Shown piece after piece: positions 34,609 through 35,953 of a stretch of 60,014 bases of DNA. Each line of letters opens with the position of its first letter. Position 1 is the first letter of the stretch. Below the pieces are notes generated by a model that made no database searches, had not been told where the DNA came from, and was given only the letters and a program-made list of their open reading frames with translations. The translations under genes were made by a program, and so were the position numbers. Source of the stretch: Globomyces pollinis-pini (taxonomy: Eukaryota > Chytridiomycota > Chytridiomycetes > Rhizophydiales > Globomycetaceae); contig MU621182.1 in assembly GCA_025399215.1 (NCBI GenBank), forward strand, positions 1-60,014, in the 5' to 3' direction.

Positions 34609-35953
34609 ATGACTGAGGGGAATCGAGTATTAGAGGATTCAACGATACAGAAAATACCAAAATTAAAAGAACCTCAGAAATCACCTTTTTTGCATTTGGC
34701 TGCTGGTTCAGTCTCAGGTTTGCTCTCTTGTGTCCTCTTACAGCCTCTGGATTTGGTAAGGAATCTCTTTCTTGTTAAATACTCCATTACTCTTGCTCAA
34801 TGTTCTCTGACTTCTTGCTAATCATCTGAATTTTTATTTGTACTCATTCTTTAGCTTAAAACTGTATGATGATGAATCATTAACATCAGAGACTACAACA
34901 ATCCATTCACAATCACAACTCTCTCAAATTGAATTACAACCACAATCACAATTTACTCTCTACACTACTCTCCGTCGTTCGCAATGACTCTGTTTGGACT
35001 CTCTGGAGAGGTACTACCGCTACCATCCTCAGAAATGTCCCTGGATCGGGTCTCTATTTTTACTCGTTACATTTATTACGTTCTAATTTACATCGCATAC
35101 AGTATCGTGGAAATCAAGTATTCAGTCAGAATTTCATTCATCTCTCTGGTGGTGTTGTTGCTAGAGTGGTATCTACTATTCCTCACCTTTAGGTAGCAGT
35201 TATTCTCATTTACTTTAGGTATGAGTACTTATCTTATATCTTAGGTACTCTTTTTGTTTGAGCTAACCTTTAGGTATTATTTCAAATTTTAACCATATCA
35301 GGTTATTTTATGATAGTATTAAAACAAAGGCTGTTGGATTTATCATGATGCCAATCACTGTCGTCAAAATCAGATTCGAGGTATCCTATATTCATTAATC
35401 AACTCAGAGCAGTTTATATCAATATACAAATATCACAAATGCTTTTAGATCCATCATCAAAACAGTATGTACGTTTTCTGATATTAGGATGGATTTCGTG
35501 GACTTTTTGCCGGTTTTGGTGCGACTGCATTACGAGATGGTACATGTTACTTTTATTGATTGTTAGCCCCATTTGCTGGAATCTATGTCTTTTTCTATGA
35601 AAACTTTAAAGCTCCAATAGGTTTGTTTGCCCCATACTAAACCGAAACAGGTAAACCAAAGCAACTAATATGAAGCAACCTTCACAACTTCGCATTCACT
35701 CACCAACATCAGTTCAGGTCTCCTTGCTGGTCTAGCTGCTACAATATCTACTCAACCATTTGATATGATCAAAACGCGTATCCAGCTGCAACCCACTGAA
35801 TACCCCAATCTTGTGCATTCTTTCCGACGTGTATTTGCCGAGGAAGGATATCGAGGGTTTTTTGGTGGTATGGTTCCCAGAATGTTACGTAAAACTATGT
35901 CTAGTGCTATTTCTTGGACTATCTATGAAGAAGTTGTACGTTATTATAAATAA
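34609..35953 (+). CDS. HEM25: Mitochondrial glycine carrier SLC25A38/Hem25
   Basis: Imports glycine for heme synthesis across the inner membrane. Three mitochondrial-carrier repeats are recovered after splicing: LAAGSVSGLLSCVLLQPLDLLKTRLQQ; then VVRNDSVWTLWRGTTATILRNVPGSGLYFYSL; then GGVVARVAVGFIMMPITVVKIRFE; then DGFRGLFAGFGATALRDAPFAGIYVFFYENFK; then SSGLLAGLAATISTQPFDMIKTRIQ and a last YRGFFGGMVPRMLRKTMSSAISWTIYEE. The PxD-KxR signature is PLDLLKTR in repeat 1, PITVVKIR in repeat 2 and PFDMIKTR in repeat 3. PITV-IK in repeat 2 is typical of SLC25A38. At least seven introns interrupt it. The 161-nt intron at 35169-35329 and the 55-nt intron at 35621-35675 have a compound structure listed separately. 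Confidence 0.94.
35169..35329 (+). other. Compound intron: six end-to-end minimal GT...AG units
   Basis: Removing all 161 bases joins VARV to AVGF in phase 0 and restores carrier repeat 2. The intron divides exactly into 35169-35192 (24 nt), 35193-35218 (26), 35219-35244 (26), 35245-35273 (29), 35274-35301 (28) and 35302-35329 (28). Every unit begins GT and ends AG, four of the five internal junctions read TTAG|GTA, and each length equals that of ordinary introns in neighbouring genes. Confidence 0.75.
35621..35675 (+). other. Compound intron: two end-to-end minimal GT...AG units
   Basis: The 55-nt intron divides into 35621-35650 (30 nt, ending ACAG) and 35651-35675 (25 nt, ending GAAG). Each has its own branch-like ACTAA sequence. 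Removing both joins FKAPI to ATFTTSHSLTNISSGLL in frame; removing only the first leads to a stop codon within nine codons. Confidence 0.6.

Follow-up and report, generated by a model that had tools for sequence, protein, structure and literature searches.

The chytrid Globomyces pollinis-pini, of the order Rhizophydiales, has a gene for an SLC25A38-like mitochondrial carrier in which 161 nt can be cut at every AGGT into six pieces, each beginning with GT and ending with AG. The question is whether this stretch leaves the transcript as one intron or consists of six introns that adjoin one another without an exon between them; in the latter case one would also like to know how the row is spliced, how it arose and whether it is isolated in this genome. 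The window (the whole stretch analysed) is the complete contig C93 of 60,014 bases, and the genome scanned is the 18.5-Mb assembly of 459 contigs.

We believe that the 161 nt probably represent six complete minimal spliceosomal introns with zero-length exons, which form one of many chains, are serially spliced and owe at least part of their growth to duplicated units. As read from the sequence, the decomposition is exact, the exons between the units have zero length, the units are intron-like in make-up, and the encoded proteins lack the chains that were checked. Each unit typically carries its own donor, branch site and acceptor. The spliceosome would remove the units singly and in any order; the neighbouring AG/GT would stay intact after each removal, and the exons would be joined correctly once the last unit has left.

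The chain in the SLC25A38-like gene

The initial annotation claimed an exact split, and it holds: cut at every AGGT, positions 35169-35329 yield GT..AG units of 24, 26, 26, 29, 28 and 28 nt (Table 1). It also described four of the five junctions as TTAG/GTA, and we find TTTAG/GTA, TTTAG/GTA, CTTAG/GTA, TTTAG/GTA and TCAG/GTT. A full decomposition of the 161 nt into pieces of 20-36 nt was obtained in none of 20,000 dinucleotide-preserving shuffles, 30 of which contained five AGGT. The weakest of the six units is the sixth, with a GTT donor, an AAAG acceptor and no YTNAY motif at 5-14 nt from its end.

To place the outer boundaries of the chain we rely on homology and on the deposited protein, because the gene finder built for this study, which was trained solely on the sequence of the G. 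pollinis-pini genome, mis-parsed the SLC25A38-like gene. The reading frame is intact after conceptual removal of the chain. Across the chain the deposited G. pollinis-pini protein P0121 (305 aa) reads GGVVARV/AVGFIMMPIT, so that all 161 nt are absent from it; the Terramyces homologue P0122 reads GGVLARV/SVGFIMMPIT across the same join and is collinear and gap-free there. The proposal that minimal introns here form an actual chain, separated by exons of zero length, is supported.

Table 1. Features of the window, by position. Figures in brackets after the branch motifs give the distance of the branch A from the unit end, in nt.
Feature	Positions	Strand	Description
SLC25A38-like mitochondrial carrier gene	34609..35953	+	ATG to TAA; conceptual protein of 308 residues ending VVRYYK*; carrier family by sequence
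Chain unit 1	35169..35192	+	24 nt, GTA..TTTAG; branch-like CTCAC (7)
Chain unit 2	35193..35218	+	26 nt; branch-like CTCAT (10) or TTTAC (6)
Chain unit 3	35219..35244	+	26 nt; branch-like CTTAT (8 or 13)
Chain unit 4	35245..35273	+	29 nt; putative branch point CTAAC (7)
Chain unit 5	35274..35301	+	28 nt; putative branch point TTAAC (9)
Chain unit 6	35302..35329	+	28 nt, GTT..AAAG; weak signals; 3' end set by homology
Second SLC25A38-like chain, unit 1	35621..35650	+	30 nt; YTNAY motif not found
Second SLC25A38-like chain, unit 2	35651..35675	+	25 nt; putative branch point CTAAT (7)
AMPK-beta-like two-unit chain, unit 1	41688..41715	+	28 nt; putative branch point TTAAC (9)
AMPK-beta-like two-unit chain, unit 2	41716..41746	+	31 nt; putative branch point TTGAC (9)

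The remaining introns of the gene, as placed, measure 26, 27, 23 and 27 nt, with one 30+25-nt chain and one intron of 99 nt. The pair at 35621-35675 is missing from P0121, which reads FKAPIATFTTS across it. Another chain of the window lies in an AMPK-beta-like gene, the conceptual protein of which aligns ungapped over the join of the 59-nt pair (41688-41746) to the AMPK beta-2 chain (6b2e_B).

Several minor observations concern the same gene and the rest of the window. In the single 99-nt intron at 34756-34854 the only other AG lies in the donor region and there is no internal YAG; long introns in G. pollinis-pini may require the absence of AG. Between this intron and the 26-nt one we place a 9-nt exon encoding Leu-Lys-Thr (34855-34863), and Terramyces P0122 has Thr-Lys-Thr at its position. 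The exon is left out of P0121, and for this reason we consider that deposited protein imperfect. A candidate “intron 8” at 35936-36039 was dropped: the deposited protein ends with VVRYYK, and a relative with IKRYI, at that point. A further two-unit chain (36 + 29 nt) was predicted on the minus strand at 6647-6711 by the gene finder with a chain prior and lacks homology support. Positions 27574-29271 hold an ATP sulfurylase ORF (Pfam) of 565 aa with a weak APS-kinase-like match at its C-terminus; the deposited protein has 673 aa.

Chains across the genome

A genome scan for AG/GT at the spacing of minimal introns had been set beforehand as a check, and its outcome depends on the strictness of the pattern. 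The counts were made on both strands, with the reversed pattern as control. Pairs of YTTAGGTA lying 24-34 nt apart number 49 against 12 in the control; at 35-45 nt the two counts are 7 and 7, and at 12-22 nt they are 1 and 11. Triples of YAGGT spaced as in introns occur 334 times (control, 185). The pattern composed of a branch motif, YAG, a spacer of d nucleotides, GTA and a second branch motif gives 623 matches against 333 for d=0, 171 against 215 for d=1 and 187 against 238 for d=3, a few places in these counts being included twice through overlapping matches. At the spacing of minimal introns, or with d=0, the stricter patterns exceed their controls, but the AGGT triple free of any pyrimidine or branch requirement is not enriched (513 against 883 for its reversed control). 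We take the reversed AGGT word to be common in the genome for other reasons; the result nevertheless speaks against a simple excess of AGGT.

The number of chain junctions can be estimated from these counts and from regions chosen regardless of chains. Subtracting the mean of the d=1 and d=3 counts from that for d=0 leaves about 444, and subtracting the d=0 control leaves 290; the d=0 pattern recovers 44 of the 169 junctions of sampled chains (26%), and scaling by this rate gives about 1,700 or 1,100 chain junctions. In six 10-kb regions chosen regardless of chains (L070-L075) the gene finder called 118 introns, 111 of them of 23-37 nt, and two zero-length internal exons when it had no chain prior; with a prior favouring chains it recognised, in 126 intron positions, four chains of two units. 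From these regions the estimate is 600-1,200 junctions. Our estimate is therefore that G. pollinis-pini holds roughly a thousand zero-exon junctions.

The phenomenon is wider than the single SLC25A38 case, with many chains across G. pollinis-pini genes; in 133 kb of loci picked for pattern matches they reach ten units. A chain of six zero-exon units had been called “unusual”, which agrees with the literature found but does not apply within G. pollinis-pini, where chains are common.

Several chains interrupt conserved genes, and the proteins on either side can be compared with known ones. The Rab8-like gene has five units of 32, 31, 35, 28 and 34 nt (160 nt) within TITTAYYRGAMGI and is ungapped to Rab8A. 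In the FYVE-domain gene four units (125 nt) split the codon of the first cysteine in a C-x-x-C pair, which we take to be zinc-binding, and the conceptual protein is ungapped to EEA1 there. The CHMP3/Vps24-like gene has a chain of ten units (26, 29, 30, 32, 27, 29, 28, 29, 29 and 30 nt; 289 nt) at C4:31779-32067 on the minus strand; its spliced protein reads LAKE/VVNSKKA, ungapped to LAKEMIRSRKA in CHMP3 (E 2.8e-6), and scores 26.9 bits with the Snf7 family, just below the curated cut-off of 27.3. For the GDSL-lipase gene the predicted splice of eight units (228 nt) matches the deposited protein P0241 over the join. The MCM8-like gene, with six units (163 nt), fits less well: it carries one extra residue relative to MCM8, located two residues ahead of the join. 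In the VPS35-like gene a 3-unit chain adjoins a 4-residue gap and a 2-unit chain brings a surplus of two residues, so that we do not count this gene as proof, and a protein-kinase gene model on C1 was left out, its chain having been mis-joined. The deposited G. pollinis-pini models compared for chain genes are two, P0121 and P0241; such models may have been predicted ab initio.

The d=3 pattern, counted genome-wide, showed no general excess of 3-nt exons separating units, though one gene has such exons. This FG-nucleoporin-like gene (L016, about 1380-1629; C75, about 41,231-41,480) shows eight minimal introns in a row; of the exons that separate them, five have 3 nt (ATA in four, ATG in one) and two have zero length. 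Conceptually spliced, the stretch gives GNNNNNATPAPTTGFQFG, and its asparagine run would come almost wholly from the 3-nt exons.

Properties and origin of the units

The units were compared with single introns in a set of 28 chains, each having four or more AGGT junctions; these were taken by spacing alone and supplied 129 bounded units from chain-selected loci and the window. The motif YTRAY, its A being placed 5-14 nt before the 3' end, is present in 73 of the 129 chain units and in 130 of the 207 single introns. It occurs in 409 of 2,580 units after shuffling and in 25 of 129 after reversal of their interiors. The selection of units is not wholly motif-free, since some of nine loci were chosen from sets of matches of which one required the branch motif. 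For YTNAY the figures are 102/129 in chain units, 171/207 in single introns and 2,596/6,450 in shuffled units. The 207 single introns were found by a gene finder that scores the branch motif, so their motif rates are favoured. Unit length is 28.9 +/- 2.7 nt and that of single introns 29.1 +/- 3.1 nt, and at 5-9 nt before the unit end AG is rare, with 7 cases as against 18 expected from the shuffles. In 28 pairs of units that are similar without being identical, the T and A of the branch core agree in 76 of 78 comparisons, against 524 of 709 at other interior sites (p = 1.6e-7, a value that is too small, since unit pairs share ancestry and were counted in both directions).

The chain units accordingly have the features of U2-type introns, i.e., GT..AG ends, a branch motif near the 3' end and a length within the range of the species, with the sixth unit of the SLC25A38 chain lacking the motif. 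Their junctions have the form of recursive splice sites, AG and GT being juxtaposed with a zero-length exon, and the chains examined span about 50-290 nt, i.e., they are not long introns. The initial annotation offered serial recursive splicing as one way of removal; we find indirect support for it, in that the internal units resemble single introns in their predicted branch points, their lengths and their splice sites.

Unit lengths show a weak shortage of multiples of three: lengths of 0, 1 and 2 modulo 3 number 52, 87 and 91 for 230 chain units and 58, 74 and 75 for the 207 single introns. A shortage of this kind is described for short ciliate introns (PMC5014332). With 46 positions dropped, 32 of 51 chains and 71 of 207 single introns have AG on the upstream flank or GT on the downstream flank; these exon flanks are not used as evidence, because choosing loci by AGGT biases them.

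Similarity between units was scored in 61 chains with 230 units, units longer than 40 nt being left out and the threshold being set above 99.9% of between-chain pairs. A pair above the threshold is found in 11 of the 61 chains, narrowly in five of them (score 9-10, threshold 8); the similarity is clear in C12, C37, C60, C152 and C225. The youngest-looking chain is L061 (C12:42085 on), with nine or ten units, of which two are identical and several others are similar 28-nt units. The other 50 chains have no clear unit copies, although neighbouring units in them still score slightly higher for likeness (mean -2.16) than do units taken from different chains (-3.24). Near-identical introns were not found among the 207 sampled single introns (5 of 21,321 pairs score at least 10), and in the comparison of sampled single introns with chain units there were three matches with a score of at least 11, the best being 14 and none near-identical.

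Over-similar units in 11 of the 61 chains point to tandem duplication of the unit. The simplest origin would be duplication of whole units at the AG/GT boundary, which may account for at least part of the growth, followed by divergence of the copies under selection for splicing that keeps the splice signals. We further propose, with slightly more doubt than confidence, that minimal introns are born continuously in this genome: copied into their own AG/GT, they would be spliceable at once and nearly neutral, with up to ten removed serially and roughly a thousand junctions present. Such continuous birth, if true, would mean a genome-wide multiplication of introns with obligatory serial splicing of minimal introns.

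Other explanations have to be weighed against this one. It is tempting to propose that the whole 161 nt leave as one intron, from the first GT to the last AG, the internal AG/GT being relics or skipped; we consider this improbable. Long single introns do seem to exist, namely the 99-nt intron of the SLC25A38-like gene and several predicted introns of 74-98 nt with one internal AG, and stwintrons are sometimes mis-spliced as a single intron (PMC12403724). However, relic internal units should have lost their branch and splice signals, and branch sites occur in the internal units at about the rate seen in single introns, the copies conserve the branch core, and unit lengths hold near 29 nt. The 228- and 289-nt chains would also be far beyond the usual length, which is 23-37 nt for 111 of the 118 introns predicted in the 60 kb of random regions. 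A nested arrangement of the stwintron type, in which one intron interrupts a splice signal of another, agrees with the multi-step excision documented for fungal stwintrons; it is nonetheless very improbable here, for no unit of the SLC25A38 chain splits the donor or acceptor of another, GT and AG being whole in all six, and five of the six contain an uninterrupted branch-like motif. That the arrangement is due to chance, or is a degenerate minisatellite within an ordinary intron, is barely credible: repeated units are indeed present in a few chains (C12, C37, C60, C152 and C225), but no shuffle could be decomposed, the spacing peak is sharp relative to the controls, the branch-point controls also disfavour this reading, and the units of 50 chains are not detectably alike.

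The alternative concerning the origin is that new introns were inserted at the AG/GT of earlier ones, as suggested in the initial annotation, and that chains did not arise by tandem duplication of DNA. An excised intron lariat could, for example, be reverse-spliced into a splice junction and then reverse transcribed. Splicing is reversible, the units begin exactly at GT and end exactly at AG, and in 50 of the 61 chains, SLC25A38 included, the units are not detectably alike. The six SLC25A38 units show no detectable mutual likeness in the similarity scoring, and therefore duplication and insertion are both possible for this chain. As a general explanation we regard insertion as rather unlikely, considering the 11 chains with similar units, the slightly greater likeness of adjacent units in the other 50, and the single introns, among which no near-identical pair was found and whose best match to a chain unit scores 14. 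Reverse splicing of a local intron would also yield copies, and in this respect insertion and duplication are not cleanly separated.

Relation to known systems

In the full-text literature searched, which excludes most subscription papers, no report of end-to-end intron chains was found. Recursive splicing in Drosophila proceeds at AG/GT ratchet points (PMC8605326), which share with the chains a juxtaposed acceptor and donor, a zero-length exon and stepwise removal, the last being presumed for the chains; however, ratchet points sit in long introns, whereas the chytrid steps are of about 28 nt, number up to ten and each resemble a complete minimal intron. Stwintrons, the spliceosomal twin introns of Ascomycota (PMC7138796, PMC12403724, PMC5639578, PMC9024468), are likewise compound intervening sequences of fungi and are spliced consecutively, as the chains would be. 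Their units are nested and usually split a donor between nucleotides 1 and 2, while the chytrid units are complete and lie side by side, up to ten in number.

The nearest idea is that of the polyubiquitin gene UBC, where a tandem array of dual-specific AGGT sites, each serving as donor or acceptor, led to the proposal that repeat expansion creates introns (PMC10809524). Tandem AGGT sites are common to both systems, but the UBC units code for ubiquitin and are included in variable number, and the chytrid units are intron-like and absent from both deposited proteins compared. Intron gain through tandem duplication of AGGT segments has been described (Rogers 1989; ATP2A1; 24-bp repeats in fission yeast; PMC4974935), as has intron repeat expansion in Cryptococcus (PMC2395259). 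As is supposed for the chains, AG and GT are there furnished by duplication, or introns already present are copied; these are, however, single cases in which coding segments or an intron-bearing repeat were duplicated, and in the chytrid whole introns adjoin with no exon in many genes.

Introners copy themselves into many genes (PMC9860276); many dispersed near-identical copies of that kind were absent from the introns sampled here. Minimal introns of about 25 nt are known from Paramecium (PMC5014332), and in ciliates as in G. pollinis-pini introns cluster near 25-30 nt; no report of ciliate-type minimal introns joined end to end was found in the literature searched. A 2026 paper on a related chytrid (PMC13391722) mentions the G. 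pollinis-pini genome in passages that do not speak of its introns.

The birth of new introns is an old open question, and few cases have been caught in the act. Chains that range from those with identical units to those with units no longer alike may form a graded series from birth to age. They also raise the question of how a spliceosome copes with introns that measure about 28 nt and directly adjoin one another. The sister strain Globomyces sp. JEL0801 is present in the databases, and unit numbers could be compared directly with it. Its lipase model P0242 lacks the stretch around the site of the eight-unit G. pollinis-pini chain; the gap is perhaps a failure of gene prediction, and we cite it as a warning that gene predictors may fail on genes with chains.
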